Shown: one piece after another, positions 24,413 through 62,200 of the stretch | How positions within the stretch are numbered: position 1 is the first letter of the stretch | Layout of the letters: each line of letters begins with the position of its first letter | The notes under the pieces: generated by a model | The model's database searches: none | Told to the model about the DNA's origin: nothing | Seen by the model: the letters and a program-made list of their open reading frames with translations, nothing else | Assembly: GCA_002239005.1 (NCBI GenBank) | Contig: MPNL01000001.1 | Location: forward strand, 124,001 to 188,000 | Direction of reading: 5' to 3' | DNA: 64,000 nt | Origin: Truepera sp. bin119 | GTDB taxonomy: Bacteria > Deinococcota > Deinococci > Deinococcales > Trueperaceae | Translations under genes and position numbers: made by a program

Positions 24413-24418
24413 ACCGTT

Positions 24419-30119: not shown

Positions 30120-30492
30120 TCACTTGTATGGATCGGCCGCGTCGCGCAGACCGTCGCCGACGAAGTTGAACGCCAGCACCGCGACCACCACGAACAGGGC
30201 GGGGATGATCAGCCACGGGAACGCGGCCACGCTGCGGATCTTCTGCGCACCCTGGAGCGGCACCCCCCAGCTCACCGCCAGCGACCGCAACCCGAGGCCC
30301 AGGAAGCTGAGGGCGGTCTCGGCCAGGATCATGCCGGGGATGTCGAGACTGACGTTCACGATCAGGTAGCCAGCGAAGTTGGGCAGCAGGTGGCGGCCGA
30401 TGATGCCGGACTCCTTCATGCCGGCCACCCGCGCCGCCATCGCGTAGTCGAGGGCGCGCAACTCCAGCAACTTGCCGCGCACCACGCGCCGT
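30120..30492 (-). pseudogene. C-terminal fragment of a peptide ABC permease (DppC type)
   Basis: About 120 residues of a DppC-type permease remain: VVRGKLLELRALDYAMAARV, AGMKESGIIGRHLLPNF (the EAA-like loop), LAETALSFLGLGL, WGVPLQGA and the terminal FNFVGDGLRDAADPYK. The join to unrelated DNA is at about 30492, just before the conserved RVVRG. Base composition looks more GC-extreme than the flanking operon. No partner genes are adjacent. It is probably a transferred or deleted remnant. Confidence 0.8.
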
Positions 30493-30938
30493 GGCGCCGC
30501 TGGCGAACGGCACCGGCAATCCACCGGCACCGGTCGCCAAGCGCTGCGCGCGTATCGCGTCTACGGCGACCTGCGAGCGGCAAGCCGAGGCACCGGCCCG
30601 CTGACCCGCCGCTTGGCACGCCGCGCGGTGTTCCGGTCGCTCGGGCGATTGTGAGCACCGAACCCGTGCAACTTGACTTGTTCGACCTCCCGTAGGGGTC
30701 AAAGGAATCCGACACCCTAAGCTTCCACTCTGAAATCCGCTGGACCACCGGGGGCTACGGATACACCTGCAGCAAGAACTCCCCCTGCATCTTCTCCCTG
30801 TCACCCGCCTCGGGCGGGGCCGTCACCCAAGCTCCGGGAATTTCGCCCGGATAGTGTCCTTGGTGTGTATTCCAGAGGCTCTCATTAAGATTCAGGTGCC
30901 CGCTCACAGGGGTAGTGGTTTACTACATCATCACCCTC
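30493..30938. other. Region with unidentified plus-strand fragments
   Basis: A plus-strand frame ending at 30654 reads ALRAYRVYGDLRAASRGTG and ends in a basic tail; its stop overlaps GTG 30651 of a 14-codon frame, MSTEPVQLDLFDLP (30651-30695). QLDLF matches the beta-clamp-binding consensus QLxLF, though so short a match may be chance. On the minus strand near 30770-30860 a frame reads GAWVTAPPEAGDREKMQGEF and ends VYP, perhaps the C-terminus of a lost enzyme. None is a supportable gene. Confidence 0.3.
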
Positions 30939-32420
30939 TCACACCCTCGTGTTCCAGAATGCCTGTGTGTAGCACCCGACCTCGTCCGCTCCCAGACGCT
31001 CTAGAGCGAGCGTTGCCTCCTCGTGAGCGAGCGAGACGATCTCCGCGGGATCGATTCGGGTCGGGCGACCGTCGCGCAGCAACACCCGACCGTCGACAAT
31101 CACAGTATCGACATCCTGTCCCGTGGCGTAGTGGACCAACAACCTCGGGGTGAAGGCACCGGAGACCAAGTGCGGCCGGTCGAGATCCACGGCGATTAGG
31201 TCGGCCCGCTTGCCGACCTCGAGTGAGCCGATCCGGTCGCCTAGGCCGAGGGCGCGAGCGGCCTCTACGGTGATCATCCGGAGCGCAACACCGGGTGGCA
31301 AAATCCGCTCATTGCCCCGAACGAGCCACTGGTTCCAGAGGGCCCGCGGCAGCTCCCGCCACAGATCGAGAGAGGTATAGGGCGCTGCCCCGTCCGAACT
31401 GATGGTGACGGTGGCCCCCGCCTCGATCAATTCCGGTATCGGTGCCAGGCCGTACCAGAGGTTCTCATGAGTGTAGGCCACGGTCGCCACCGCGCAACCC
31501 GCTGCGCCCAGCGTAGTCACTTCGGGCTCCAGGAGGCCATTTGCGTGAGCGATGACCACGTCTGGGCCCAAGAGCTCTGAGACCACCCCAGCACCGAAGT
31601 GCTTGAGGGCGAACGAGACCGAACCGCGGAACATGTGCGTGTGAAGCTGGATCCCGTAGTGGTCAGCATGTTCGCGCAACTCCTCAGCCCGCGCGAGCAT
31701 GTCCGGGGCATCCTCAGCGGTCGGTAGCCGCTGGGGGTGCCGACGGTGCTCCACGTGGCGGCCGAACAGGTAGGGCGGCGCCAGCGCAACCCCCACCAAG
31801 CCCCCGGCAGCGCCGTGCCAATTGCGGACGGTCTCCAGGCTGCTCTGGAGCGCGTCGCGGTAGCTGAAGTTGCGCCGGACCCAGTGACCACCCTCGAGGA
31901 AGCTGCCACTCCACGGCTCCTCGAGGTGGGAGAACAGGGGATCGGGCGGACCCACCCCGAGCACCACTCTGACGCCGGTCTCGGCGTAGGCGCGAGCCCC
32001 TTGTTCGGCAAACACCGGGCTGTCGCAGCGGGCCGGCGTCGCGCCCACAACGGATACACCGGTGGTAACGCCGCAGCGGAGCCTCTCAGTCGCTGCCAGC
32101 AGCGCCTCGGCGTACCACCAACGCTCGCTGGTGGCGTGCCAGTACAGCTCGCCGGCCGGCCAGCCGTGGTCGGGGTGGAACAGGCCGCGTATCATCCCGT
32201 GCCCCGCGTGAGCGTAGGTGTCGACGAGACCGGGCATCAGCACCCGTCTCCCACCGCAGAGGGTCTCAGCAGGTCGGTAACGACCCTCGAGCTCCACGCG
32301 AGGCCCGACAGCCACGATCTCCCCAGCTCGCACCGCTACGCCACCATCCTCAAGCACCCGATCTTGGGCGTCCATAGTGAGGACGAAACTACCTAGAACC
32401 AGGAGGTCGACCTCTTCCAC
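30939..32420 (-). CDS. Amidohydrolase of the TrzA/SsnA (cytosine-deaminase-like) family
   Basis: Metal-dependent hydrolase/deaminase of 493 residues, acting in the cytoplasm on an amide, amidine or halogenated ring. It has the N-terminal strand LLVLGSFVLTMD, then MPGLVDTYAHAGHGMIRG, QLHTHMFRG, VIAHANGL, ISSDGAAP and the C-terminal GSLEVGKRADLIAVDLD. The usual first metal motif HxH is YAH here, so the first His is replaced. Start is GTG 32420. It is the last gene of the large minus-strand catabolic operon, after an SDR gene. Confidence 0.9.
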   Translation of the reverse strand: MEEVDLLVLGSFVLTMDAQDRVLEDGGVAVRAGEIVAVGPRVELEGRYRPAETLCGGRRVLMPGLVDTYAHAGHGMIRGLFHPDHGWPAGELYWHATSERWWYAEALLAATERLRCGVTTGVSVVGATPARCDSPVFAEQGARAYAETGVRVVLGVGPPDPLFSHLEEPWSGSFLEGGHWVRRNFSYRDALQSSLETVRNWHGAAGGLVGVALAPPYLFGRHVEHRRHPQRLPTAEDAPDMLARAEELREHADHYGIQLHTHMFRGSVSFALKHFGAGVVSELLGPDVVIAHANGLLEPEVTTLGAAGCAVATVAYTHENLWYGLAPIPELIEAGATVTISSDGAAPYTSLDLWRELPRALWNQWLVRGNERILPPGVALRMITVEAARALGLGDRIGSLEVGKRADLIAVDLDRPHLVSGAFTPRLLVHYATGQDVDTVIVDGRVLLRDGRPTRIDPAEIVSLAHEEATLALERLGADEVGCYTQAFWNTRV

Positions 32421-32448
32421 ACTCTTGTCTGGAGTCAGAAGCGGTTCC

Positions 32449-33234
32449 TTACAGGCTGCGGACAGCCCCGCCGTCGACTAAGACTGTGCTGCCACTTATG
32501 TATAGCGCCGCCTCTGAGCAGAGGAAGGCTGCCACCCTGCCAAACTCCTCGGGCTGGCCGAGGCGGCCCATAGGGATCGCCTGGAGTGCCTGTTCACGGA
32601 CCGCCTCGAAGCTGCTGCCGCGGCGCTCGGCCAGAGCTCGGTCCAGTTGGTTCACCCGCTCCGTCTCGATCCGCCCGGGTGCGAGGCAGTTGACCTGGAT
32701 GTTGTCGCCAGCCAGTTCGATCGACAGAGATTTGCAGAGCCCCTGAACCGCGGGCCGGAACACATTGGAGAGCAGCAAGTTTGGCAGCGGACGCTTGACG
32801 CTCGAACTGGCGATCGCCAGGATGCGACCACCACCCGCTGCCCGAAGGTGGGGGAGTGCGTAGCGGACGCTACGCACCACGCTCTGAAGAGTCAGCGCGT
32901 AGGCGCTGTCCCAAGCCTCTTCGTCCAGCGATTCAAAACTGCCTGGGGAGGGCCCGCCGGCGTTGCAGACCAAGATGTCGAGCCCCCCTAGATCCGCAGC
33001 GACCGCCTCGAACAGCGATTGCAGGTCTGCGTCGCTGCTCACATCCGCCCGGAAGGCCCGCGCCCGGCCACCCCCCCTGCTCAGGCGGGTGGCTGCCGCC
33101 TCGGCTCGGCCGAGGTCGCGGCTGCACAGGGCTACCTCGGCCCCTTCTGCAGCCAGCGCCTCGGCGGTAGCAAAGCCAAGTCCCCCACTGGCGGCCGTCA
33201 CCAGCACCCGCTTGCCGTCTAAGCCGAGATTCAT
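32449..33234 (-). CDS. Short-chain dehydrogenase/reductase
   Basis: Classical SDR, 261 residues, with VTAASGGLGFATAEALA, VCNAGG, ILAIASSSVKRPLP, and PEEFGRVAAFLCSEAALYIS near the end. The usual active-site Tyr of YxxxK is replaced: the equivalent region reads LPNLLLSNVFRPAVQGLCKS, with no Tyr or Lys in the normal spacing. It may therefore lack normal dehydrogenase activity or use another residue. ATG 33234 overlaps the upstream gene stop by four bases. Confidence 0.88.
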   Translation of the reverse strand: MNLGLDGKRVLVTAASGGLGFATAEALAAEGAEVALCSRDLGRAEAAATRLSRGGGRARAFRADVSSDADLQSLFEAVAADLGGLDILVCNAGGPSPGSFESLDEEAWDSAYALTLQSVVRSVRYALPHLRAAGGGRILAIASSSVKRPLPNLLLSNVFRPAVQGLCKSLSIELAGDNIQVNCLAPGRIETERVNQLDRALAERRGSSFEAVREQALQAIPMGRLGQPEEFGRVAAFLCSEAALYISGSTVLVDGGAVRSL

Positions 33235-34142
33235 GCCGAGACCCTGTCAAACCCGCAGACATCGAGGGCCGCGCGTAACTCGCTGCGGAGTCGATCATCG
33301 ATCTGCGGGCCGGGGTGGCGCACGTAGGCCGAGGCGATGGCGCCGCGCCGACGGTAGACCTCCTTGCGCAGCGCCAAGCCGACCCCAGGCTGGAACTCGT
33401 AGCGCAGGATCGGGCAGGCGCGGTAGAAGATGCGGGCCGCCTCTTCGTGATCACCGCCCATGAAGGCGCGCTGAATAGCCACCAGGACCTCCGGGTAGGA
33501 GAAGCCCGTCATCATGCCATCCGAGCCGCGCAGAAGCTCCTCAAGATAGTGGATGCCACCCAGGCCCCCGACGATCCCTATGTCGCTCCCTAGATCCCGG
33601 AGGGCACTCACCTTGGGGCCGGTCGGCGGCTCCTCGAGCTTGATGACCTCGACATGCTCAAGCTCTCGGTGAAGCCGTACGACCAACTCGGGGCTGAGCC
33701 GCACGCCGGTCGTCGCCGGATAGTCATGGAGGATGATGGGGGCGTTGACCGCCTCGTCGAGGCGGCGGTAGGACTCGAAGATGACGGTGTCGCTCTGGAT
33801 CGAAGGGGGCGCCACCAGTAGTCCGGCGGCGCCAAGGTCTAAGGCGGCTCGGCTCCGCACGATGGTCAGGTCGGTGCCGCCGGAACTGGTCCCCACGAAG
33901 ACGGGGATCCGGCCCGAGGTCGCCTCGACGGTGGTACGGATCACGGCCACCTGCTCCTCGTCGGATAGCTTGGGCGCCTCGCCCATAACGCCCAGGACCA
34001 CTACCCCGTCCACCTCGAGATCGATCAAGAAACGGGTGAGTCGGTCGAGGCTGGCGGTGTCGAGGCGGCCATCTTCCGCAAACGGTGTCGGCATGATCGT
34101 GAAAACCCCTCTGAACCAACCCGATTCAAATCCCTCTAGCAT
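33231..34142 (-). CDS. Dihydrodipicolinate synthase/N-acetylneuraminate lyase family aldolase
   Basis: Class I (Schiff-base) aldolase/lyase of 303 residues. Motifs: FTIMPTPFAEDGRLD, VLGVMGEAPKLSDEEQ, LHDYPATTGV (catalytic Tyr) and VEVIKLEEPPTGPK (Schiff-base Lys). It is not necessarily the lysine-pathway enzyme: position in a catabolic operon with amidohydrolases suggests cleavage or dehydration of a keto-acid intermediate. It overlaps the SDR gene by four bases and follows the dihydropyrimidinase-like gene. Confidence 0.92.
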   Translation of the reverse strand: MLEGFESGWFRGVFTIMPTPFAEDGRLDTASLDRLTRFLIDLEVDGVVVLGVMGEAPKLSDEEQVAVIRTTVEATSGRIPVFVGTSSGGTDLTIVRSRAALDLGAAGLLVAPPSIQSDTVIFESYRRLDEAVNAPIILHDYPATTGVRLSPELVVRLHRELEHVEVIKLEEPPTGPKVSALRDLGSDIGIVGGLGGIHYLEELLRGSDGMMTGFSYPEVLVAIQRAFMGGDHEEAARIFYRACPILRYEFQPGVGLALRKEVYRRRGAIASAYVRHPGPQIDDRLRSELRAALDVCGFDRVSA

Positions 34143-34171
34143 GCTAAGAAACCTCCCACTGGATCTGGCTA

Positions 34172-35596
34172 CTATGTCGTCGGCATCTGCTGCCCACCCG
34201 CCACAGACCCACCTCCGGGACAGATGAATCGCCCCTGGCCCGGCTCGCCGGTAATCTTACCGTCGAAGATGGTCCGGCCGGCGAGCAGGGTCCGGAGGAC
34301 CTTCCCCCTAAAGGCCATCCCATCATAGAGGCGGTCGCAGCATCGGGCCTGGGTGTAGAGATCCTCTTGGCGGATGACGGTCTCCGCCTCGAGGTCGGCG
34401 ACGACGAGGTCGGCGTCCGCGCCGACCTCGATGACCCCCTTGCGTGGGTAGAGGCCGAAGCGCCTGGCACCGTTGGTGCTCATCAACTCGACAGCCTTCT
34501 CCAAGCCGAGACGGCCCGTCGCCACCGCGTGGAGCATCCCCGGCACCAACTCCTCGACGCCGGGCGCGCCCGGCGGGGCGGCCCAGATATCGGTCCTGGC
34601 CTCCTCCTTCTCTGCCACCGTAAATGGTGAGTGGTCGGTGGTGACCACCAGCAGGGTCCCATCCCGCAACCCCTCCCACAGGGCCTCCCGGTCGTCGGGG
34701 GTACGCAGGGGCGGATTGATCTTGGCGTACGATCCGTGCTCTGAGAGGGCTTCCTCGGTGAATAGCAGGTACTGCGGGCAGGTCTCGGCCGTCACATCCA
34801 TCCCCTGGGACCGAAACATCCGCACCGTGTCGAGGGCCATCCGGGAGGTCACGTGGGCGATGTGGAGCGGCCCGCCTACGGCCCGGTTGAGGGTGAGCAG
34901 CTTGGCGATCGCGAGCGCCTCGACCAGCGGCGGCCGGGACTCTCCGTGGGTCTCGGGATCGTTGCGCCCGGTCTTAAGGAGCCTCGCTGTGAAGTGCTTG
35001 AGAAGCGGGTTGCTCTCGGCATGCACCGAGGTGACCAGTCCCGTCGCAGCGACCAGTCGGAGGGCCTCGAGGAGGGGGCCCTCGTCGGGCAGGCACAGGC
35101 CGCCAAACTCGTCGTCGCGCCCCTTCGGCGCCTCGGTCATAAAGATCTTAAAGCCGATGGCTCCCTCCTCAACCATACCGGCGACGTGGTCTGGATTCAG
35201 GGTTCCGGGCGCACCGTAGAGCGCAAAGTCGACATAGGCCTCTCGGGCGAACAGCTCTCGGCGGCTCCGGAACACCTCGGGAGTAGCACAGCAGGGCTTC
35301 GAAATCGGCATCTCGAACAGGGTAGTAACCCCGCCCGCAGCGGCGGCACGCGTCTCCGAGGCGACCGTGCCGCGCTCGGGGTAGGCCGGGGCGCGGACAT
35401 GGAAGTGAATATCGACGGCGCCGGGGAGCACATGCTTCCCAGTCGCACCTATCACCTCATCTGCGGTAGCCCCGGCACCCGGCTCAAGCAGCGCCGCAAT
35501 ACGACCGCCCTTTATAGCAACGTCTACCTCCCTTACTCCACCGGAGGTCACGACCGCTCCCCCCTCGATCAGGCTGTCATACACTGCGTCGCTCAC
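34172..35596 (-). CDS. Dihydropyrimidinase/allantoinase-like cyclic amidohydrolase
   Basis: Opens a cyclic amide ring (hydantoin, dihydropyrimidine, allantoin or dihydroorotate type). The 474-residue protein has HVLPGAVDIHFHVRAP (HxH), GAIGFKIFMTEAPKG (carboxylated Lys), SVHAESN, LHIAHVTSR, and TTDHSPFTVAEKE (metal Asp): a full binuclear site. The SVHAES and CPQYLLFTEE segments look closest to allantoinase (AllB) and hydantoinase. Start GTG 35596. It lies 10 nt after the aspartoacylase-like gene. Confidence 0.93.
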   Translation of the reverse strand: MSDAVYDSLIEGGAVVTSGGVREVDVAIKGGRIAALLEPGAGATADEVIGATGKHVLPGAVDIHFHVRAPAYPERGTVASETRAAAAGGVTTLFEMPISKPCCATPEVFRSRRELFAREAYVDFALYGAPGTLNPDHVAGMVEEGAIGFKIFMTEAPKGRDDEFGGLCLPDEGPLLEALRLVAATGLVTSVHAESNPLLKHFTARLLKTGRNDPETHGESRPPLVEALAIAKLLTLNRAVGGPLHIAHVTSRMALDTVRMFRSQGMDVTAETCPQYLLFTEEALSEHGSYAKINPPLRTPDDREALWEGLRDGTLLVVTTDHSPFTVAEKEEARTDIWAAPPGAPGVEELVPGMLHAVATGRLGLEKAVELMSTNGARRFGLYPRKGVIEVGADADLVVADLEAETVIRQEDLYTQARCCDRLYDGMAFRGKVLRTLLAGRTIFDGKITGEPGQGRFICPGGGSVAGGQQMPTT

Positions 35597-35606
35597 ACCT
35601 GTCCCC

Positions 35607-36730
35607 TCAGCGACCGGGGATCAGATTGTCGACGGTCTGCTCGACCACCCCGAAGAAGCAGCACCAGTGCCCTTCGAGAAGCGAGGCCCGCGCGCGAAGC
35701 CCGAATACCACACCCTCCTGAGGCGCCCTCACCTCACCGACCACATCGCCATAGAGGTTGTAGATCTGCCCGAGGAGGGTCCCTTCAGCAATCGACGTCT
35801 CAAACTCCAACTCGGGATTGCCCACGAACATCCCGCTAGCGGGGGCGAGCAGTGCGATCTGGTGGCCCTGGCGCCAACTGTCGGCGTACTCAGCCTCACC
35901 ACCGATCATGCCGTAGTGCCGCATCACGTTGAGGTAGCTGTCAGCGAGATCGCTGGCGACAGCGTGGAAATCGCTGGTCAGCAGCCGGCAGTTACCGCCC
36001 AACTCCACAGTGATACCCCCCTTACCGAGGCTGCCAACCATCGAACTCGGGTTACCGCTGCCGGTCCCGCCACGGAACACCACGGTCCACCGCGGCCCAG
36101 CCCCCGGCACTCCCCCCCCACCCCCCCAGTCACCCCCCCCTCCCCGGGCCTCCCCACCATCGACCCGGGGTTACCCCCGCCGGCCCCGCCACGGAACACC
36201 AGGGTCCACCGAGGGCCCATGGCAGCGGCCAGCTCCCAGCTGGCGGGGTTGTCGGCGGAGAAGATCATGTGTGCCAGGTAGGAGTGCTCTCCGCCCGAGT
36301 GGATCGCGATCTGCAGATCGCACCGATCCTTCATCGCCTGCCAGTGTGCGAAGGCGATCCGCTCCGTCGGGTAGCCGTCGGGACGACCCGGGTAGAGCCG
36401 GTTCATATCGTAAGAAAAGGTGTCGAGGGGGTCACCCCGGGTCCCGGCCGCAAAGGCACCGACATTCAGGACCGGCACCGCAACGACCGTTCCCCTTAAC
36501 TCCGCCGGGTCGAGCTGTTGGGTGGCGAGGAAGATCGAGAAGGGGCCTTCGGGCTCATCGCCGTGGGTTGCACCGTTTAGCCACAGGATGGGGCCGTCCC
36601 GCGCCCCCCGGAAGACGGTGACGGGGATGGCCCGCTCGTTGCCGCAGATGTCCCGTCCGACGGGGATGCCACCCCGTTTGACCTCACCGGGAAGGACCGA
36701 AATGTTGCCGATGGTCAGGGGTTCAGACAT
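35607..36730 (-). pseudogene. Succinylglutamate desuccinylase/aspartoacylase-like gene split by a near-duplication
   Basis: Zinc deacylase of the M14-like AstE/AspA family. The N-terminal part (from ATG 36730, site GAGGAGA) shows LWLNGATHGDEPEG and LQIAIHSGGEHSYLAHM, the zinc His/Glu/His set. The C-terminal part (from about 36100) shows GKGGITVELGGNCR and a beta-rich tail. The two parts are in different frames only because a 119-bp imperfect copy lies between them (36005-36100 against 36124-36219). Removing 119 bp restores one 334-residue reading frame. The intervening DNA is heavily G-biased on the coding strand, so an assembly artefact is likely and the true gene is probably intact. Confidence 0.8.
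36005..36219. repeat. Imperfect 119-bp-offset tandem duplication with extreme C/G bias
   Basis: 36005-36100 recurs at 36124-36219, for example CCACGGAACACCA at 36070 and 36189. The left half of the second copy is a version of the first with many bases turned to C. The DNA just right of the first copy (36101-36123) is likewise a C-converted version of the DNA right of the second copy. Such one-way conversion to G on the coding strand is what low-quality read ends produce in two-colour sequencing. Confidence 0.7.
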
Positions 36731-36770
36731 GACACTCTCCTCACAGGGGCCGCGCGGGAACGGTGCGCGG

Positions 36771-37946
36771 TCACGTCCGCTCCTTCCCCGCTGCCGGGGC
36801 AGTCATCACCGCCTCGAGAAATGATGACAGAATCGCCTCGCACTCGTGCAGGGCCGAAAGTTCGACATACTCGTCGAAGGCGTGGGCCACCTCATAACTG
36901 CCAGGGCCGAAGATAACCATATCCCCTCGGGCCCGTTCCAACAGGTGCTTGGCGTCACTCCCCGGCAGGTAGCCGATCGGATCGGCATCCGCGTACGCAC
37001 TCACAGCGATCTGGAACGCCTGCCCGAACTCGGTCGACAGCTCCGAGTCGAACCAGCCTGAGAACAGGAAGTTGCCCACCTCGGCAGTCGCAGGAGCGAT
37101 CTGGACCGAGGCTACGACCTCCCCCAACTCACGTCGGACCGTCTCCGGATCCTCTCGCGGGATCACCCGCCGATCGAGCCGGACCGAACAGCTGTCGGGC
37201 ACCGCATTGGCGGTGCTGCCCCCCCAGATAGTGCCCACATTACAGGTGGGAGAACCGGCCAGCGGGTGGCTGCGCTGCCCTAGTCGCTGGTGATAGTCCT
37301 CCAAGGCGAGGATTACCCGCGACATGGCGACGATGGCATTAACGCCACGGTCGGGGTTGGTCGCGTGGACAGAGTGGCCGCGGGTAGTCACCGTAGCGCG
37401 CATTATCCCCTTGTGAGCCAGTGCGATCCGGTTGCCTGTCTGCTCCCCGACTATAACAAAATCCGCATCGGGCAGGTGACCCCCGTCGGCCAGCCAGCGG
37501 GTCCCCAACTGTCCCCCCGTCTCCTCCTCAGCCGCGGCCACCAGCACCAGCGTCCCACAGAGAGCGTCGGCGACTGCGGCCAGCTTTGCGAAGGCCGTCA
37601 TCATGGCGGCCAGTGGTGCCTTGTCGTCCACGCTTCCTTTACCATAGAGCCGGCCCTCGATCACGCTCGGCAAGAAGGGATCGGTCGACCAGCGCCGCTC
37701 CTCGTCGGCGGCCACTGGAACCGTGTCGGTGTGAGCGTGGAGTATGATCACCGGCGCCTCGCCACTGCCCAGGGTCGCCACCACGCTGGAGGCCTCGCTC
37801 TTCTGTGGCGGCTGCAGGGTCTCGACCTCCGCACCGGTTGCGGCAAGCCGCTCGGCGACGAACTCGGCGATCGCCCGGCAGTCGCCTGGCGGATTCGGCG
37901 AGGGGATCCCCACTAGCTCAGCGAGGAGGTGCTCAAGGTCGCTCAC
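36771..37946 (-). CDS. M20-family metallopeptidase (ArgE/DapE/CPG2-like)
   Basis: Zinc-dependent deacylase or dipeptidase, 391 residues, cytoplasmic. Motifs: VIILHAHTDTVPV (metal His and catalytic Asp), GKGSVDDKAPLA (bridging Asp), LVAAAEEETGGQLG (catalytic Glu pair), dimerisation segment RGHSVHATNPDRGVNAI, and YEVAHAFDEYVEL (final His). Start GTG 37946. Between the VOC and aspartoacylase-like genes, it probably removes an N-acyl or N-carbamoyl group from an amino acid set free by the ring-opening enzyme. Confidence 0.93.
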   Translation of the reverse strand: MSDLEHLLAELVGIPSPNPPGDCRAIAEFVAERLAATGAEVETLQPPQKSEASSVVATLGSGEAPVIILHAHTDTVPVAADEERRWSTDPFLPSVIEGRLYGKGSVDDKAPLAAMMTAFAKLAAVADALCGTLVLVAAAEEETGGQLGTRWLADGGHLPDADFVIVGEQTGNRIALAHKGIMRATVTTRGHSVHATNPDRGVNAIVAMSRVILALEDYHQRLGQRSHPLAGSPTCNVGTIWGGSTANAVPDSCSVRLDRRVIPREDPETVRRELGEVVASVQIAPATAEVGNFLFSGWFDSELSTEFGQAFQIAVSAYADADPIGYLPGSDAKHLLERARGDMVIFGPGSYEVAHAFDEYVELSALHECEAILSSFLEAVMTAPAAGKERT

Positions 37947-37963
37947 CCGTGCGAACCCATCAG

Positions 37964-38503
37964 CTAGAGGTCGAGGGGACCCTCGCGGTACTCTTCGGGA
38001 ACCTCCTCAGGCCTGTAGACCTGCATGAACTCGACACCCGGTCCCGGAACCCCATCGTCTTCTAGGAAGGCGACCCAGCCTTCGGGATGCTCGTAGCTGC
38101 CCACGATCCCGCAGTTGTGACACACGGTATTCTCGTCGACCTCAGCCTCCCAGCGAGCGACCTCTTCCGGATCGTTGGAGATCCGGCAACTCTGCTCGCG
38201 CATCTGTGCCCCCTCCGCCACGGCCTGCTGGATCGTCGCCTTGAGGTCGTCGACCGTGTAGCAGATATGATGGATGCTCTCACCGAACTCAGCAACATGC
38301 TTCGCGTAGCGCCCATCGGGGTCGAGCGACTGGATCAGCTGATACTGGACATCCCCGATCATGAAGGTCGCGGTGCGCTGGCGGGTAACCTGCGACTCCT
38401 TGACCACCGCATCGGCGCCAGCGCCTAAGCGTTTGCGGTAGCGCCCGAGCGCTTCATCGGCGTCCGCCACCGCAACAGCGATGTGCTTGACTCCTGTAAC
38501 CAT
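37964..38503 (-). CDS. VOC-superfamily protein (glyoxalase/methylmalonyl-CoA epimerase-like)
   Basis: Vicinal-oxygen-chelate fold of 179 residues. KHIAVAVADADEALGRYRKRLG gives the first metal His; ESIHHICYTVDDLKATIQQA gives the central His pair; VEFMQVY carries the final Glu. The spacing is that of methylmalonyl-CoA epimerase, with an insertion of about 40 residues (including CHNCG) before the last strand. Likely an epimerase, lyase or dioxygenase for a pathway intermediate. Confidence 0.85.
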   Translation of the reverse strand: MVTGVKHIAVAVADADEALGRYRKRLGAGADAVVKESQVTRQRTATFMIGDVQYQLIQSLDPDGRYAKHVAEFGESIHHICYTVDDLKATIQQAVAEGAQMREQSCRISNDPEEVARWEAEVDENTVCHNCGIVGSYEHPEGWVAFLEDDGVPGPGVEFMQVYRPEEVPEEYREGPLDL

Positions 38504-38588
38504 ACCTCCACTCTCCTCCTCGGTGACTCATTGAGCGTACACGAAGTCGGCCCCCTCTTCACCCGACCTGCGACGCATCCCCCTCCGA

Positions 38589-39482
38589 TCAGTCCCCTCT
38601 TCCCTTGGACACCCTGGGGTCGAGCACCTCGCTCAGGCGATCCCCCAGGAGATTGACCGACATCACGGACAGAAATAGCGCGAGTCCGGGGAAAATCATG
38701 GTCCAGGATGCGAAGCGCATGTAGTCGCGGCTCTTATTCAGCATCGCCCCCCACTCCGGCGTAGGTGGCTGCGCCCCCAACCCGAGGAAACTAAGCGAGG
38801 CCGTCGAGATGATAGCCCCCGCCAGATTGAGCGTCGCCAGAACCGTGATGGTGGGGAGCACACTCGGCAGCAGGTGTCTCAAGACGACCCGGAGGCTGCC
38901 GGCTCCGAGAGCCTGCGACGCCTCCACGAAGGGCCGGTTCTTGATCGCCAGCGTCGACCCCCGAACAACCCGGGCGAAGCGGGGAATCCCGGCGATACCC
39001 ACAGCGACCACCACATTAGGGAGACCCACCCCGAGCACCGCCACGATCAGGATCGCCAGGACGATCGGCGGGAAGCCGAGCATCACATCTATGATCATGA
39101 CGCCGACATGGTCGATCCGCCCACCGAAATGGGCGATGAAGAGTCCAAAGAGGCTGCCCACGATCATGGAGAAGAGCACCGTCGCAATGCCGACCGAAAG
39201 CGAGAAACGCCCACCGTAGAGCACCCGCGAGAACACATCCCGGCCGAACAGGTCGGTGCCGAACCAGTGGGTGGCGCTCGGAGGGGAGAGGCGAGGACCG
39301 ACGAACTGCTCCTTCCAGTCGTAAGGGGCCACCCAGGGAGCGACCACGGCGCCGACGACCAATGTCAACAGGATCAGGGCGCCGATGAAGGCACCGGGAT
39401 TCATTACCAACTGACGCCATACCCTTCGTGCCCTGCTGCGGCCTTCGCGGCCGCCCTCGCGGGCAGGGGCGTTCGAGATCAC
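38589..39482 (-). CDS. Peptide ABC transporter permease (DppC type)
   Basis: Inner-membrane permease, 297 residues. Cytoplasmic N-terminus, then a first span (AFIGALILLTLVVGAVVA), FGTDLFGRDVFSRVLYGGR, the ATPase-contact loop EASQALGAGSLRVVLRHLLP and TASLSFLGLGAQPPTPEWGAM, all typical of DppC. GTG 39482 overlaps the dppB stop (GTGA). No ATPase gene follows; the only ATPase pair nearby is on the other side of the regulator. Confidence 0.94.
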   Translation of the reverse strand: MISNAPAREGGREGRSRARRVWRQLVMNPGAFIGALILLTLVVGAVVAPWVAPYDWKEQFVGPRLSPPSATHWFGTDLFGRDVFSRVLYGGRFSLSVGIATVLFSMIVGSLFGLFIAHFGGRIDHVGVMIIDVMLGFPPIVLAILIVAVLGVGLPNVVVAVGIAGIPRFARVVRGSTLAIKNRPFVEASQALGAGSLRVVLRHLLPSVLPTITVLATLNLAGAIISTASLSFLGLGAQPPTPEWGAMLNKSRDYMRFASWTMIFPGLALFLSVMSVNLLGDRLSEVLDPRVSKGRGD

Positions 39483-40408
39483 CCCGACCTCGCATCGCGG
39501 ATCCGCGGGTCGATGACTCCGTAGAGCAGATCGACGATGAGATTGAAGACGATATAGGCGCTGGTGGTGTAGATGACTAGCGCCTGAACCATCGGAACAT
39601 CCTTGTTGAGGACCGACGTCACCAGCAGCTGGCCGAGGCCGGGCCGGGCGAACACCGTCTCGGTGATGACCGCTCCGCCGATCAGCAGTGCAAACTGCAC
39701 CCCCAGCAGTGTCACAGGTGGGATCATGGCGTTCCGCAGGGCATGTTTGAAGACCACGCGCAGATGGTTGAGACCCTTGGCCTTACCGGTACGGATATAA
39801 TCCTCGGTCATGACCTCGAGGATGGTCGAGCGGATGAGCCGCGCCAGGTTCCCTACCAGGAAGAATCCGACCGAGATCGACGGCAGCACCAAAGCCGGCA
39901 GACCCTCGCCCACAATGGGGAACAGATCGAGCTTGAGCCCGAAGAAGAAGATGAGTAGCATCGCAGTCCAGAAGCTGGGCATGGAGATGCCCGCCAAGGC
40001 GAACATCATCGACCCAGTGTCAGCCCAGGAGTTGGGTCGGGTGCCGGACAGCACCCCCAAGGAGACACCGAATACGAGACCGACCAGCAGACCTCCGGCT
40101 GCCAACTCCAGGGTCGGTCGGAGTTGGGCCCCGACCTCCCGAATGACCGGCTGCCGGGTGCGGTAGGAGTCGCCGAGGTCGCCTCGGACAACGCGCCACA
40201 GGAAATTCACGTAGCGGCTAAGGATCGGCTTGTCGAGACCGAGGTTGCGACGGACGTTCTCCCTGACCTCTTGTGAGGCGGGGCGACCCGCCAGCATCAG
40301 ATTGACGGGGTCGCCCGGAATAATCTGCAAGACGGCGAAGATAAGGGTCCAAGATATGAACAGTACCGGGACGATACCGGCAAGACGTCTGAGGAAATAG
40401 CTGGTCAT
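39479..40408 (-). CDS. Peptide ABC transporter permease (DppB type)
   Basis: Inner-membrane permease, 309 residues. FLRRLAGIVPVLFISWTLIF (first span), IIPGDPV, the ATPase-contact loop IRTGKAKGLNHLRVVFKHAL RNAMIP and the terminal DLLYGVIDPRIRD are family hallmarks. It follows the binding protein after a hairpin and is translationally coupled to dppC. Confidence 0.95.
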   Translation of the reverse strand: MTSYFLRRLAGIVPVLFISWTLIFAVLQIIPGDPVNLMLAGRPASQEVRENVRRNLGLDKPILSRYVNFLWRVVRGDLGDSYRTRQPVIREVGAQLRPTLELAAGGLLVGLVFGVSLGVLSGTRPNSWADTGSMMFALAGISMPSFWTAMLLIFFFGLKLDLFPIVGEGLPALVLPSISVGFFLVGNLARLIRSTILEVMTEDYIRTGKAKGLNHLRVVFKHALRNAMIPPVTLLGVQFALLIGGAVITETVFARPGLGQLLVTSVLNKDVPMVQALVIYTTSAYIVFNLIVDLLYGVIDPRIRDARSG

Positions 40409-40487
40409 CTGAGATTCCTCACGGAGCTACGCAGGGGCCCGTGACATCCGCTCCCGAAAGGGGTCGGGAGAGCCCGTTGGATGAGGC

Positions 40488-40519
40488 ATGGGTATCCCCC
40501 CGACCGGGGGGATACCCAT
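40488..40519 (-). terminator. Perfect 14-bp hairpin after the binding-protein gene
   Basis: 40488-40501 and 40506-40519 are exact inverted repeats with six G/C pairs next to a 4-nt GACC loop. It stands 16 nt past the binding-protein stop and about 80 nt before dppB. There is no clear T-run; a 3'-end stabiliser or partial terminator is likely. Confidence 0.65.
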
Positions 40520-40534
40520 AATCCACGTCGACGA

Positions 40535-42127
40535 TCAGTTGGCCCGTGTGACGTCGTAGAAACGGACCTGCCAGTTGCCGGGGGCGAAGCGGAATCCGCT
40601 GAAGTCGCTGCTGAAAGCCACCATCTGTAGCTGATCGTGCAGCGCGAAGAAGGTGGCACCGTCCATAATCATCTGCTGGATCTGCTGGTAGAGCGCAGCC
40701 CGCTCGTCTGGAGAGGTGGCGGCCTCGGCATCTTCGAGGAGCTGGTCGAGCACCGGGTCGTCGATCCGCGACCAGTTGAACTTGAAGATGCCGGGTTCAG
40801 GGATGTTGCGGCTGTGGAACGGGATGATCAGCACGCCCGGATCGTTCGAGACCCAGCGGATCACCAGCACGTCGTAGTCGTTGGCAAAGATGAGCTCGTC
40901 CTGCCTGGCTTTGAGGACATTCTCAACCTGCACGTCGAAGCCGACCTTGGCGACCTCGGCCTGAACCGCGACCGCGGTGTCGGGCTCGAGAAGCGATGGG
41001 AAGAACAGGCTCAACTCCTCACCATCCTTCTCACGAACCCCGTCGCCGTCGCTGTCGGTCCAACCGGCCTGCTCGAGTAGCGCCATAGCCCGCTCGGGAT
41101 CATAGTTGTAGTACGACTCGACACCGTCCCAGTAGAGCGGGGTCGAGGCGCTGAGCGGACCGTAGGCCGGGGCGGCGAAGCCGAAGAACAGGTTCTCCGC
41201 CAACCGGGGACGATCCACTGCATGCATGAAGGCCTGCCTCACCAGGGGATCCATGAGCGGCCCGCGAGTGGTGTTGAACATGATGCTGAAGGGTAGCCCA
41301 GCGACATTGCCGACCATGGTCCCGAAGTCGGGGTCACTCTGGTAACTGAGCAGATCGAGCGGGGTCACGAGGTCGGCGATGTTGATCTCACCCGCCTCGA
41401 GCGCGGCCACCCGAGTGCTGGTGTCGGGAATGAAGCGCAGGACGACGCGCTCGACCTCGGACGGTCCCTGGTGATCGTAGAAGGCGGGGGCCCAGTTGTA
41501 ATCTTCGTTGCGCTCGAGGGTCACCCGCAGGCCAGCCTCCCAGGAGACGAATTTGAAGGGGCCGGTACCCACCGGATTGCGGGCGAAGCCGTCGTTGCCC
41601 AACTCCTGAACCGCAGTGGGGCTGACGATCGAGAGCTCGGTCTCACTAAAGGCGCTCAGGGCCGCAGCGTAGGGCCGCTCAAAGTTTACCCGAACCTCGA
41701 GATCGCCCAGGATCTCTGTTGAAGCGTAGGGGCCCAGGACATCGATGGCGCCCTGCGATCCGAGCTCCGGGTCCTGGATTGAGTCGAAGGTAAACTTCAC
41801 AGCCTCGGCGTTGAACGGTGTGCCATCGTGAAAGGTCACACCCTCGCGTAGCTGGAAGGTCCATGAGAGATCGTCGTCGGAGACCTCCCACGAGGTGGCC
41901 AGACCGGGATAGAAGTCCTGCCCGTCACGGTAGATGAGCGGATCGAAGATCTGGAGGATCATCTGCTCTTCGTGCCGCGACTGGGTCACCCTCGGATCGA
42001 GCGTCGAGTGGTCCGATCGGTCCTCACCCCAGACCACAGTGAGGCCGTCCTGGGCAAAACCTGTACTCAGGCCCACCAGGGGTAGGGCCAGCAGGACGGC
42101 TAGTAGGATGGATGCTTGTCTTTTCAC
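40535..42127 (-). CDS. Peptide ABC transporter substrate-binding protein (SBP_bac_5)
   Basis: Extracytoplasmic binding protein, 530 residues. I start at GTG 42127: a GGAGG site at 42136-42140 precedes it and a signal peptide follows (VKRQASILLAVLLALPLVG, ending GFAQ). Upstream codons in the same frame lack sense. The mature protein has DHSTLDPRVTQSR, ATSWEVSDDDLSWTFQLREG, FHDGTPFNAEAVKFTFD and NPVGTGPFKF, classic DppA/OppA segments. Encoded with dppB and dppC and controlled from the GntR region. The ligand is unknown; the enzymes nearby suggest amides or short peptides. Confidence 0.95.
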   Translation of the reverse strand: MKRQASILLAVLLALPLVGLSTGFAQDGLTVVWGEDRSDHSTLDPRVTQSRHEEQMILQIFDPLIYRDGQDFYPGLATSWEVSDDDLSWTFQLREGVTFHDGTPFNAEAVKFTFDSIQDPELGSQGAIDVLGPYASTEILGDLEVRVNFERPYAAALSAFSETELSIVSPTAVQELGNDGFARNPVGTGPFKFVSWEAGLRVTLERNEDYNWAPAFYDHQGPSEVERVVLRFIPDTSTRVAALEAGEINIADLVTPLDLLSYQSDPDFGTMVGNVAGLPFSIMFNTTRGPLMDPLVRQAFMHAVDRPRLAENLFFGFAAPAYGPLSASTPLYWDGVESYYNYDPERAMALLEQAGWTDSDGDGVREKDGEELSLFFPSLLEPDTAVAVQAEVAKVGFDVQVENVLKARQDELIFANDYDVLVIRWVSNDPGVLIIPFHSRNIPEPGIFKFNWSRIDDPVLDQLLEDAEAATSPDERAALYQQIQQMIMDGATFFALHDQLQMVAFSSDFSGFRFAPGNWQVRFYDVTRAN

Positions 42128-42179
42128 AACTCTAACCTCCTCGAAAATCACCGAACACCATAAATACCAGAATTTCCGC

Positions 42180-43433
42180 TCAGGAAACCTCCTTTCCATC
42201 CTTAAAAACGCGCAGCCGTGAGGGATCCTGCAAGAGGGTGATGTCAGCACTCGGGTCGCCGCAGACCAGAACCAGGTCGGCAAGCTTGCCCGCTTGAAGG
42301 GTCCCGGCCTCGTCGAGGCCCAGGAGTTCCGCACCGGTGCGGGTCGCCGCTGTGATCGCCTCCAAGGGCGTCAATCCACCACGCACCAGCAGTTCGATCT
42401 CGACGGCGTTCATTACCCCGTGCGGAAGCATGAAGCCTGCATCGGTCCCGACAGCGATCTTCACTCCAGCCCGGTGGGCGTTCACAAGACTCTCCCACTT
42501 CGCCTCGCGAGACAGGTTCAGCCAGCGCCAAGAGGCGTCAGAGGCCCCCATCTCCTCCTGGGTGAAGTCGAAGTTCCGTTCGTTAACCAGCAATGTGGGT
42601 ACGTAGAAGGTGCCCCGCTCCGCCATCAGCGCGGCTGTCTCCTCATCGATCCAGTGTCCGTGCTCGACGGTGTTGAGGCCTGCCCGGACCGCAGTGGCGA
42701 TGGCGGGCCCACCCGAGGTGTGGGCAGCGACGGGGCGCTCGAGCCGATGGGCCTCGTCGCAGGCCGCCTCGATCTCCTCGTCGGTCATCTCTTGCCGGTA
42801 GGGCCGCTCCGGGTCCTTAATCGAGCTGACGCACACGTTGATCTTAATGAGATCGGCTCCACGTTTAACCTGTTCCCGAACACCCTTACGGAAGGCGTTG
42901 GGACCGTCACACACGGCGTTCATTCCGTTCAGAGAGACATGGTCGCCGAACCCCGGCTGATCCATGTGGCCACCGCTAGCCGAGAGGCCTAACCCGCACG
43001 CGCGGATGCGAGGGCCGGGAACGTGACCCGCGTCGATGGCGTCACGCAGGTCGATAACGACCCCACCAGGAGCGTTGAGGTCGCGCACCGCGGTGAAGCC
43101 GGCCCGCAGCGTGTCACGGGCGTAGCCAGCAGCCCGCAGCGCCATCGCCGGGTAGGACATGTCGGTCCCCTCGGCGCGGAAGGCCCGCTTGTGGGGAATA
43201 CCGCTGTAGGCCAGGTGGACGTGGACATCCACCAAGCCAGGCATGAGTGTGTATCCCGGCGCCTCGATGATCTCAGCGCCCTCGGGAACGACCACGTCGG
43301 TGCGCGACCCGACCGAGGCGATCCGCCCACCAGTGACTACCAGGGCGGCGTCGCGCAGCGGCGGGCCGCCGTTGCCGTCGATTAACCCGTCGACCCGGAA
43401 CGCAAGTACGCGACCCTCGTCACTCAACCGCAC
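42180..43433 (-). CDS. Amidohydrolase (imidazolonepropionase/prolidase-like)
   Basis: Metal-dependent hydrolase, 417 residues. MPGLVDVHVHLAYSG gives HxH; the carboxylated-Lys region is GADLIKINVCVSS; AAHTSGG and VEHGHWID give later His ligands; VGTDAGFMLP gives the metal Asp; ends with AGKLADLVLVCGDP. This is the layout of the Xaa-Pro dipeptidase/imidazolonepropionase subgroup. Start GTG 43433, one base after the SDR stop. Confidence 0.92.
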   Translation of the reverse strand: MRLSDEGRVLAFRVDGLIDGNGGPPLRDAALVVTGGRIASVGSRTDVVVPEGAEIIEAPGYTLMPGLVDVHVHLAYSGIPHKRAFRAEGTDMSYPAMALRAAGYARDTLRAGFTAVRDLNAPGGVVIDLRDAIDAGHVPGPRIRACGLGLSASGGHMDQPGFGDHVSLNGMNAVCDGPNAFRKGVREQVKRGADLIKINVCVSSIKDPERPYRQEMTDEEIEAACDEAHRLERPVAAHTSGGPAIATAVRAGLNTVEHGHWIDEETAALMAERGTFYVPTLLVNERNFDFTQEEMGASDASWRWLNLSREAKWESLVNAHRAGVKIAVGTDAGFMLPHGVMNAVEIELLVRGGLTPLEAITAATRTGAELLGLDEAGTLQAGKLADLVLVCGDPSADITLLQDPSRLRVFKDGKEVS

Positions 43434-43434
43434 C

Positions 43435-44202
43435 TCACAGCCACCCTTCCGCCCGCAGCCTCTCGGAGAGCTCCCAGGCCTGAATGTAGCGGTCGTGAAC
43501 GCCCTCGGGCGTCTGCAAGGCCAAGTGCACGAAGGCCGGGGTGATCACAGCCGGGTCCTGCCACAGCTTTCGCTTCTCGGCGTCGTAGGTGATCTCGCTC
43601 ATCGAAGTGTGGACCAGGACACCCGGGGTGATCGTGTTAACGGAGATGCCAAAGGGTCCGAGTTCGGCCGCCAGCGCCCGGCTCATCCCTTCGATGCCGA
43701 ACTTCGAGGCGCAGTAGGCGACCTCGGTGGCGAAGCCGAGCACACCCGCCCGGCTCGAAACGTTGATGATAGCCCCGCGGCCGGCCGCCTTCATGGCGGG
43801 CACGACCTCCCGGCAGAGCATGAATGGGCCGCGCAGATTGACACCGAGGACCCGGTCCCAGTCCTCAACAGAGGTCTCCTCAACAGGCCTCTCGATAATG
43901 ATGCCGGCGATATTCGCCAGCACGTCGATGCAGCCCTGCTCCTCGAGAACGCGCCCGACGAGCACCGCAACCTGCCGCCCGTCGGCCACATCCGTCGGTA
44001 CCGCGTGAGCTGCGAAACCCTCCGCCCGAAGGGCATCCACCTCGCGAGTCAGCTCGTCGGTGACTAGGTCAGCTCCGTAGACAACCGCTCCCTCACGGGC
44101 GTAACGGCGCGCTACCGCCCGACCGATACCGCGGGCAGCCCCGGTGACGATCGCCACCCGGCCCGCTAGCAGAGGGACCCCGCCACTGCCGCTATCAGCC
44201 AC
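43435..44202 (-). CDS. Short-chain dehydrogenase/reductase (FabG-like)
   Basis: Classical SDR, 255 residues: VTGAARGIGRAVARRYA, LANIAGI, IINVSSRAGV, YCASKFGIEGMSRALA (YxxxK) and SVNTITPGV. It would oxidise or reduce a hydroxyl group of a pathway intermediate. Its start overlaps the gntR stop by eight bases, so it is the first enzyme gene after the regulator. Confidence 0.93.
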   Translation of the reverse strand: MADSGSGGVPLLAGRVAIVTGAARGIGRAVARRYAREGAVVYGADLVTDELTREVDALRAEGFAAHAVPTDVADGRQVAVLVGRVLEEQGCIDVLANIAGIIIERPVEETSVEDWDRVLGVNLRGPFMLCREVVPAMKAAGRGAIINVSSRAGVLGFATEVAYCASKFGIEGMSRALAAELGPFGISVNTITPGVLVHTSMSEITYDAEKRKLWQDPAVITPAFVHLALQTPEGVHDRYIQAWELSERLRAEGWL

Positions 44203-44908
44203 TGCAGTCGCCTCCTGAATCCTCCAGATCCCAGTTCGGATTCACCACTTCCAACTGATTCAGATGGACGATAATATTCTCAACGTGCTCCCGGGCCGCC
44301 ACCTCAGCGAGGTCCGGGTCCCGCTCAACCAGCGACTCGAAGATCTTCTGGTGCTCGGCACGAACGACCTCGCGGGAACGTCCCTGCCCGCTAGCGCTCA
44401 GCTTCCGGATCGTGTTGCGACGATAGATGGCTGCGAGCTCGTGGGCGATCTGCGCGAAGCGGATCAGATGCCGGTTACCGGTGACCTGATAGATGATCTC
44501 GTGGAAGCTCATGTCGGCAACCCAGAGGGCATGGAGATCGTCCTCCAGGGGGGGCCGCTCCCAGACGCGAAGCTGATGCTCGAGCCGAGCCAACCCCTCG
44601 CCGGTAATCAACTCGGCTGCGAGACGGGTGGCCAAGCTGTCGAGTGCCAACCGGCAGCGATATAGGTCCACAACATCCATGATCGACTGCTTCGCGACGG
44701 CGAGCCTGCCCCCCTGTTCCTCGAGGAGTCCTCGCTCCTTGAGCACGATCAGCGCGCTGCTCACCGGCGTCCGACTTACTCCCAACTCCTCCGCGAGCTC
44801 CGCCTCCACCAGCACCTGTCCCGGTTTGTAGGTGCCGTTGATAATGTGCTCCCGGACAAACTCGCAAACCTGCTCGCTGAGCGTCGGACCACGAACGATA
44901 ACAGACAT
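44195..44908 (-). CDS. GntR-family transcriptional regulator (FCD subfamily)
   Basis: Probable local regulator. Residues about 8-75 form the winged helix: VCEFVREHIINGTYKPGQVL, then EELGVSRTPVSSALIVLKER. The C-terminal alpha-helical FCD ligand domain shows DMSFHEIIYQVTGNRHLIR with metal-type Asp/His residues, and a late AAREHVENI. 237 residues, normal length. Gene order (first in the minus-strand catabolic operon, divergent from dppD) strongly suggests control of both operons, usually repression relieved by a carboxylate. Confidence 0.93.
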   Translation of the reverse strand: MSVIVRGPTLSEQVCEFVREHIINGTYKPGQVLVEAELAEELGVSRTPVSSALIVLKERGLLEEQGGRLAVAKQSIMDVVDLYRCRLALDSLATRLAAELITGEGLARLEHQLRVWERPPLEDDLHALWVADMSFHEIIYQVTGNRHLIRFAQIAHELAAIYRRNTIRKLSASGQGRSREVVRAEHQKIFESLVERDPDLAEVAAREHVENIIVHLNQLEVVNPNWDLEDSGGDCSG

Positions 44909-45164: not shown

Positions 45165-46170
45165 GTGGCTCTGACCTCCCTCGACGAGTCCGCCATCCTC
45201 CAGGTCAGGGACATCCAGATCAGGTTCAAGACCCAGGAGGGCACGGTCCACGCCGTCAACGGCATCAGCTTCGATCTCAACGAGGGCGAACTCCTCGGCG
45301 TGGTGGGCGAGAGCGGGTCGGGCAAGAGCGTCACCATGATGTCGCTGCTGAAGCTCCTGCCGATGCCCCCGGCCGAGATCGCCTCGGGTGAGGCCCTGTT
45401 CAACGGGCGCGACCTGATCCGCCTGAGCGATGAAGAACTGCGCCGGGTGCGCGGCCGAGAGATCGGCTTCATCTTCCAGGACCCGATGACCTCGCTCAAT
45501 CCCGTGCTGACCGTCGGCTACCAGTTGACCGAGCACCTGCGCCGGCACCTGGGGATGACCCGGTCCCAGGTCAGGTGCCGGGCTGCAGAGTTGCTGGCGC
45601 TGGTGGGCATTCCCCAGGCCGAGGCGCGGCTGGACGACTACCCCCACCAGTTCTCTGGGGGGATGCGCCAGCGCGTGATGATCGCCATCGCTCTGGCCTG
45701 CGACCCCAAAGTGCTTATCGCGGACGAACCCACCACCGCCCTGGATGTCACCATCCAGGCACAGATCCTAGAACTGATCAAACAGCTGCGCCAGGAGCTG
45801 GGCATGTCCATTATCTGGATCACCCACGACCTAGGTGTGGTGGCCGGCATGGCCAACCGGGTGATGGTGATGTACGGCGGTTTTGTAGTGGAGCGGGCCG
45901 GGGTGAGCGAACTCTACGGCAACCCGCAGCACCCCTACACTCGAGGCCTGCTCGAGTCCTTGCCGAGGCTCGACGAGGAGGGCGACGAGCACCTCCAGGG
46001 CATCGAGGGGCAACCGCCCAACCTGCTCAGCCAACCATCGTCCTGCCCATTCGCACCGCGCTGCCCCTACGCCTTCGAACGGTGCACCGAGGAAAACCCC
46101 CTGCTCGAGGAGGTCGGTGACGGCCACGAGGTCGCCTGCTGGTGGGACATCGACGGGGGAGTGCCGCGCC

Positions 46171-46181
<11 letters not shown>
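45165..46181 (+). CDS. dppD: Peptide ABC transporter ATP-binding protein (DppD)
   Basis: Cytoplasmic ATPase, 338 residues. Walker [10 protein letters not shown]-loop [11 protein letters not shown], signature [15 protein letters not shown], Walker [14 protein letters not shown]-loop WITHDLG, and the C-terminal oligopeptide motif [14 protein letters not shown], which may hold an iron-sulfur cluster in this family. Start GTG 45165 without a strong ribosome site. It overlaps dppF by 11 bases. It may also serve the permeases at 38589-40408. Confidence 0.96.
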
Positions 46182-47196
<1,015 letters not shown>

Positions 47197-53810: not shown

Positions 53811-53920
53811 AATCTCTTACTCTACCCGACCAAGCCTCTGGTAGTGCAGTTCGGTCGTGGCTCCTCTGCTGTCAAGCCCGGCATCGTGAGCCATTCCCAG
53901 CGGCCCGCGTGCTTCAACTC

Positions 53921-55201: not shown

Positions 55202-55213
55202 GGTCATCCCCCT

Positions 55214-61985: not shown

Positions 61986-62200
61986 CGGGATGAGGCAGGC
62001 CCTCCGGGAGATAGGGTCTTCCACGTCGAGATGCAACAGGCGGGTCGCTGGGAGTCGCCCACAGTGCCTGGTCACTACGCTACAGCCGAACTCGCCACCA
62101 GACCCGAAGAGTCCGAATCTCGGGACAGTGGTGAGGTTGCTCTATAGGAAGTAGGATGCGGCAGACCCAAAGAGTCTGGCTTTGAAGTTGGAGGATGACC
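61986..62200. other. Intergenic region before the large ankyrin gene
   Basis: A plus-strand frame (about 61998-62145) reads GDRVFHVEMQQAGRWESPTV with reasonable codon use but no start or known family; it may be a gene stub. GGAGG at 62190-62194 is the ribosome site for the next gene. Confidence 0.35.

Follow-up and report, generated by a model that had tools for sequence, protein, structure and literature searches.

The 64,000-nucleotide stretch of Truepera sp. bin119 analysed here (assembly GCA_002239005.1, contig MPNL01000001.1, positions 124,001 to 188,000; hereafter the window) carries on its minus strand a run of 13 co-directional genes at positions 30939-44908. The question raised by this locus is whether its amide hydrolases, dehydrogenases, importer components and regulator make up one catabolic pathway and, if so, for what kind of substrate. 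An initial annotation had proposed a single catabolic operon for cyclic amides or acylated amino acids, in which an importer is combined with deacylases and an amidohydrolase that opens the ring. All 13 genes are indeed present in one direction, and their families were confirmed by Pfam. The run very probably encodes a breakdown pathway. We see an even chance that GntR controls it as a catabolic operon which has an oligopeptide-type importer of its own and the conserved genes VOC-M20-AspA-AllB-DapA-SDR1 at its centre, the steps being those suggested by the enzyme families.

The gene run and its enzymes

In the order of transcription, the run starts with a GntR/FCD regulator (44195-44908; Pfam GntR and FCD), followed by the short-chain dehydrogenase (SDR) SDR2 (43435-44202; adh_short), the prolidase/carboxypeptidase-like amidohydrolase (AH) AH2 (42180-43433), the solute-binding protein (SBP) of an oligopeptide-type importer (40535-42127; SBP_bac_5, 300 bits), which probably begins at 42127 rather than at 42334, and two permeases, one of the DppB type (39479-40408; BPD_transp_1) and one of the DppC type (38589-39482; BPD_transp_1 and OppC_N). 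Then come a VOC-fold protein resembling methylmalonyl-CoA epimerase (37964-38503; Glyoxalase_4), an M20 deacylase of the ArgE/DapE family (36771-37946), an AspA/AstE/DoeB-like deacylase (35607-36730; AstE_AspA_cat), the core enzyme, which is an AllB-like cyclic amidohydrolase assigned by family and metal-site residues (34172-35596), a DapA-superfamily aldolase/dehydratase (33231-34142), SDR1 (32449-33234) and the TRZ/ATZ-type amidohydrolase AH1 (30939-32420), the last two assigned by Pfam. Altogether, Pfam recognises three amidohydrolases, two SDRs, DHDPS (in DapA), an AstE/AspA catalytic domain, M20, glyoxalase/VOC, two OppB/C-type permeases, SBP_bac_5 and GntR-FCD. The spacing between the genes ranges from -8 (overlap) to +126 bases, and the GC content at third codon positions is 0.76-0.82 across all 13. 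Promoter-like sites (2 vs a mean of 2.3 in shuffled sequences) and terminator-like sites (1 vs 7.7) gave no signal.

AllB belongs to the cyclic amidohydrolase superfamily together with allantoinase, D-hydantoinase/dihydropyrimidinase and dihydroorotase, with which it shares the fold family and all six metal ligands. Residues H64, H66, K150, H192, H248 and D321, which we take to be the binuclear-metal ligands (HxH, carboxylated Lys, His, His and Asp), align with those of Escherichia coli allantoinase and, like R68 and N294, are conserved in at least 95% of 78 sequences. The clade of the window enzyme differs from the known families by the signatures HFHxRAP, MPISKP, GRxDEF and KINPP, and its scores stay below the cut-offs of the models for allantoinase AllB (TIGR03178; 329.8 vs 357.85 bits), dihydropyrimidinase/D-hydantoinase (TIGR02033; 313.3 vs 393.25) and general dihydroorotase (TIGR00857; 273.7 vs 279.05). 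At the position of R68 there is an Arg in two aligned dihydroorotase-like sequences and a Ser in E. coli allantoinase. In dihydroorotase, the corresponding Arg binds the substrate carboxylate, and the residue thus suggests a carboxylated ring as the substrate of AllB. A housekeeping dihydroorotase role was rejected for the related genomes G002 and G016 (genome numbers as used in this study), since dedicated PyrC dihydroorotases score above cut-off elsewhere in both. A search of plasmids for AllB returned a best match of 40% identity and no close relative. A second AllB paralogue (approximately 50% identity) resides in a locus common to the window's genome, G002 and G016 (L014:1-8664, L015 and L016), along with two hydantoinase-B-type genes, an M24-type gene, a 470-aa protein and an amidohydrolase; one of the hydantoinase-B-type genes scores, below cut-off, on the caprolactamase-beta model.

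Among the other enzymes, M20 reaches the ArgE/DapE model TIGR01910 (231.8 bits, cut-off 217.6), and residues of the catalytic type are conserved in it as they are in AllB, DapA and VOC. At least 95% of 53 VOC sequences share the residues H7, Q55, H79, E158, C128, C131 and H139; the H-Q-H-E set is like that of methylmalonyl-CoA epimerase, while C128, C131 and H139 form an additional conserved and unusual CxxC...His stretch. DapA is below the cut-off for 4-hydroxy-tetrahydrodipicolinate synthase (TIGR00674; 115.1 vs 206.15 bits). Its K168, kept by at least 95% of 36 sequences, aligns with the Lys of 3dz1 and 7c0c, as in class I Schiff-base enzymes, and its nearest relatives in the PDB are the uncharacterised protein 3dz1 and, as the nearest characterised one, L-2-keto-3-deoxyarabonate dehydratase. 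AH2 is homologous over almost its full length to the prolidases, the Arg carboxypeptidase Cc2672 (3mtw, its closest PDB relative) and ochratoxinase of the amidohydrolase superfamily, but it scores 311.6 bits against the cut-off of 500 for the Caulobacter-type Xaa-Pro dipeptidase (NF051886). In AH1 the first metal His is replaced by Tyr (Y69-x-H) in three of three sequences.

The aspartoacylase-like deacylase of the initial annotation stands as a member of the AstE/AspA family, but its gene is present here as two open reading frames (ORFs; 35978-36730 and 35607-36110), whereas it is intact in G002 (L009:8904-9908, 334 aa) and in G016. The split is caused by a 119-base near-repeat at approximately 36094-36213 on the minus strand. 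Of the 29 substitutions between its copies, 24 replace another base with G (A, C and T eight times each). Such a one-sided pattern resembles low-quality base calls in the contig more than it does evolution, so that the near-repeat is probably a sequencing or assembly artefact; a genuine frameshift was judged less likely. Other frameshifts of the bin119 assembly therefore deserve suspicion as well. The candidate dihydroorotase of the same genome (G000:C41:67000-68288) was also found as two pieces, possibly another assembly error.

Conservation of gene order

Whether the run could be a chance assembly of genes was addressed through its relatives. Among 40 other genomes, close AllB relatives were found in G002 (77% identity), G016 (76%), G021 (69%) and G032 (61%). 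A scan of named genomes yielded 80 AllB loci: 59 with AllB at 55% identity or more, 15 at 45-55% and six below 45%. By their titles, the 59 close loci comprise 54 from Chloroflexota, four from Deinococcota and one titled Pleurocapsa minor, possibly a contig placed in the wrong bin. Genes were counted at 40% identity and 40% query coverage; due to contig ends the counts are lower bounds, and many of the loci are related and so not independent. In the close loci, M20 was counted 58 times (directly upstream of AllB in 57), VOC 46, DapA 33, SDR1 22, AspA 11 and AH2 two times, and AH1, SBP, SDR2 and GntR were each found in none. The 15 loci of intermediate similarity contain no M20, VOC, DapA, SDR1 or AspA; SDR2 was counted in seven of them, DppD and DppF in eight each and AH2 in one. 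None of these genes was found in the six distant loci.

In G002, VOC-M20-AspA-AllB-DapA-SDR1 are consecutive and 71-82% identical to the window genes (SDR1, directly after DapA, 76%). The window has the same arrangement, M20 and VOC lying upstream of AllB on the same strand and AspA between M20 and AllB. G016 keeps SDR2-AH2-SBP-DppB-DppC-VOC-M20-AspA-AllB with insertions, the nine genes being 65-83% identical except for VOC (44%). There, SDR2 (70%) is directly before AH2 (76%), the SBP (75%) is in the same place, DppB and DppC are 83% and 82% identical, and DppC is followed by an insert of an M20-dipeptidase-like gene (by eye) and a permease pair, and then by VOC, an aminotransferase, M20, an SDR, AspA and AllB. 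Because gene order is conserved across genera and phyla and the genes co-occur in the counts, chance assembly of the core was rejected: for most of the genes, the non-conservation that the initial annotation had regarded as pointing to chance was not observed.

The annotation of all 13 genes as a single unit, on the other hand, was not supported. AH1 has no relative in any of the 80 named loci at 40% identity and lies approximately 40 kb away in G016; it is outside the conserved unit, an accessory gene of this genome that is to be left out of the core. Furthermore, the importer half (with SDR2 and AH2) and the half from VOC to SDR1 occur together in several genomes yet are separable, since G002 has VOC to SDR1 but nothing that matches SDR2 or AH2 at the thresholds applied. 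One may thus ask whether these are two independent, adjacent units, a peptide-import/prolidase unit GntR-SDR2-AH2-SBP-DppB-DppC and the unit VOC-M20-AspA-AllB-DapA-SDR1, joined by rearrangement. Besides the G002 locus, such an origin would explain why AH2-AH2-SDR2-SDR-GntR of G032 is on a contig without AllB and why SBP, SDR2 and GntR are missing from the close named loci. However, both halves are kept in the same order and on the same strand in G016, GntR-SBP-DppB-DppC-VOC occur together in G013 and G022 (followed by an aminotransferase and a DUF4438 pair), and AH2 relatives are near AllB in two of two Meiothermus loci. GntR relatives (53-54% identity) also adjoin importer or AH2 genes in G013, G022 and G032. 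We consider two independent units rather unlikely.

The importer was described in the initial annotation as collinear with the enzymes, which is true of the SBP, DppB and DppC. The ATPases, in contrast, are outside the operon: DppD (45165-46181) and DppF (46117-47196), both with ABC_tran and oligo_HPY, are on the plus strand, divergent from it at 45165-47196. Next to them come a second SBP and then two ORFs that are permeases by eye. DppD and DppF may power the importer of the operon, but because they adjoin this second SBP and the permease-like ORFs, we infer such sharing only. DppD relatives (50-55% identity) are found directly 3' of AllB in Devosia loci, and DppF relatives occur in the same context. 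Just 3' of AH1, a C-terminal fragment of a DppC-type permease (30120-30530, minus strand; profile positions 67-180 of 184) looks like a remnant of a rearrangement.

Counterparts of the genes that flank the G002 locus are likewise present in the window. They keep their order and orientation but lie further from the conserved genes, by 17 kb and 6.5 kb. On one side of the G002 genes, directly before VOC and on the opposite strand, there are a FAH-family hydrolase and an NAD-epimerase (L009:6607-5723 and 5717-4761), 70% and 68% identical to those at 55492-57344 of the window (plus strand). On the other side, directly after SDR1, a class II aldolase and an FGGY kinase (L009:14683-15522 and 13207-14670) are 65% and 63% identical to their counterparts at 23588-25888 (minus strand). 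The best NCBIfam match of the window FAH hydrolase is 2,4-didehydro-3-deoxy-L-rhamnonate hydrolase (224 bits, cut-off 500). Other genes of this region include secreted-looking ankyrin-repeat proteins (repeats by eye) at 53037-55207 and 62195-64000, one of which runs past the window end, and an enolase-type gene adjoining a phosphotransferase-like gene (57351-59659; both by eye). The enolase-type gene is 47-48% identical to stretches near the distant AllB relatives L092 and L093.

Possible substrates

For the catabolic operon outlined above, it is most plausible that the ring is opened first and the product then deacylated and oxidised, where we infer every step and the substrate from the enzyme families. 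The SBP/DppBC importer would take up a small amide-containing acid, and AllB would hydrolyse a ring amide (ureide, lactam or imide) bearing a carboxylate. M20 and the AspA/DoeB-like enzyme could then remove an N-acyl or N-carbamoyl group from the opened product, VOC could epimerise an acidic centre and AH2 could trim a peptide-like amide. SDR1 and SDR2 would oxidise a hydroxylated backbone, and the DapA-like enzyme would dehydrate or cleave the resulting 2-keto-3-deoxy-type acid. The last steps recall the 2-keto-3-deoxy sugar-acid routes for L-arabinonate and L-rhamnonate, with which the locus shares an SDR, the nearest characterised relative of DapA and the best NCBIfam match of the FAH hydrolase. 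It differs from them in that DapA and FAH are below the equivalog cut-offs, amide hydrolases are added and FAH is 17 kb off. In other genomes, genes for glycosidase-like proteins, Gfo/Idh, epimerase, FAH and a kinase are close to the unit, so that the compound degraded may consist of an amino-acid-like part linked to a sugar-acid-like one.

Several observations weigh against this scheme. The cut-off of the broad ArgE/DapE family is the only one reached, and AllB is only 6 bits below that of TIGR00857, which one G016 paralogue passes. The DapA relatives of Chloroflexota are only 39-44% identical. Not every step seems obligatory, because AspA, DapA and SDR1 were counted in only part of the 59 close loci, where the numbers are lower bounds. 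The catabolic operon of the initial annotation is thus upheld in its families and in their order across genera and phyla, but not as a unit of 13. Its statement that no described pathway has this gene set agrees with our search of the open-access PubMed Central (PMC) literature, in which none was found.

An oligopeptide-type importer and an AH2 that resembles prolidase and Arg carboxypeptidase would also suit a salvage pathway for cyclic dipeptides or modified peptides, in which AllB would open a diketopiperazine-like ring and M20, AH2 and AspA would finish the peptide. M14, M24 and M32 peptidases are indeed encoded in larger related clusters, but they are absent from the window operon, and DapA, the SDRs, FAH, the kinase/aldolase pair, Gfo/Idh and the glycosidase-like protein would be left unexplained; this salvage appears improbable. 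Catabolism of a purine- or pyrimidine-type ureide or hydantoin (allantoin, dihydropyrimidine or hydantoin) is suggested by the score of AllB on the allantoinase model, the M20 enzyme close by and an AllD-like Ldh_2 gene in larger clusters. Such a route is nevertheless decidedly improbable: AllB stays below both the allantoinase and the D-hydantoinase cut-offs, M20 is of the ArgE/DapE type and DapA and SDR1 are not accounted for. Neither does the layout resemble the E. coli allantoin region (E. coli allantoinase, PMC9863593), since the window AllB has M20 and VOC as neighbours in place of the E. coli arrangement of allantoin (all) genes. Degradation of an ectoine-like cyclic amidine, with AllB replacing the usual hydrolase and AspA acting as DoeB, is the least credible: AspA finds its closest PDB relatives among the N-acetyl-diaminobutyrate deacetylases (75 bits with the intact relative as query), which makes it a remote DoeB relative, and a six-membered carboxylated ring is common to ectoine and dihydroorotate, but AspA scores only 88.7 bits on DoeB/EutE (TIGR02994, cut-off 402.7; N-terminal fragment of the broken gene), it is missing from most related clusters, and EutD/DoeA is above cut-off in none of three genomes, so that the canonical route is not supported.

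A larger cluster across phyla

A larger cluster, for which no name was found, occurs in Chloroflexota, Deinococcota and, in part, Devosia, and the unit of the window is one variant of it. Common to the clusters of Chloroflexota, Meiothermus and Devosia and the window are AllB, M20, VOC, AspA, DapA, SDR1 and an amidohydrolase, whereas a DUF4438 pair, an aminotransferase, Ldh_2, M14, M24, M32 and MFS proteins are variously found there and not in the window operon. The Chloroflexota cluster variously includes the DUF4438 pair, Ldh_2, the aminotransferase, M14, M24 and M32 peptidases, an amidohydrolase and a transporter, as well as a divergent GntR-epimerase-Gfo/Idh group. In Devosia the order is DUF4438 pair-Ldh_2-M24-amidohydrolase-aminotransferase-470-aa protein-AllB-DppD-DppF-M14, and no M20 or VOC relatives were detected in these loci at 40% identity. 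DUF4438 has no match across the genome of the window, and no paper on it was found in the open-access PMC literature. Enduracididine-type chemistry was considered and set aside: on the guanitoxin model GntC (cut-off 415; PMC10367076), 332.4 bits were obtained for the aminotransferase of the related clusters, but this gene is absent from the 13-gene operon.

The 470-aa protein (family of L014:5983-7395 and 35 other members) matches no Pfam family and no PDB sequence. In the window's genome it is encoded on another contig, beside the AllB paralogue and the two hydantoinase-B-type genes. Its predicted structure (mean pLDDT 87.3) is a glycosidase-like barrel, the nearest folds being PgaB and Cwp19 (Z approximately 25, root-mean-square deviation 3.3-3.7 over 314-331 residues). 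The model is best taken as a general glycosidase-like barrel; a shared fold is not proof of function, and other families are possible.

Tentatively, and with more doubt than for the operon itself, it may be suggested that the operon is the short form of a new cross-phylum pathway that would break down an amino-acid- or peptide-like amide, possibly ring-closed, joined to a sugar-acid-like part. Besides AllB, M20, VOC, AspA, DapA and SDR, its full form would include the DUF4438 pair and the protein of glycosidase fold that lacks a Pfam family.

The enzymes of this locus form a conserved and clearly delimited set, and the context that they share narrows down what the substrate can be. Through them, DUF4438 and an unclassified glycosidase-like family are placed in a probable pathway. 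Once its substrate were identified, the pathway would become a predictable trait for many environmental genomes of Chloroflexota, Deinococcota and Devosia, and enzymes now labelled as allantoinase or dihydroorotase could be renamed.

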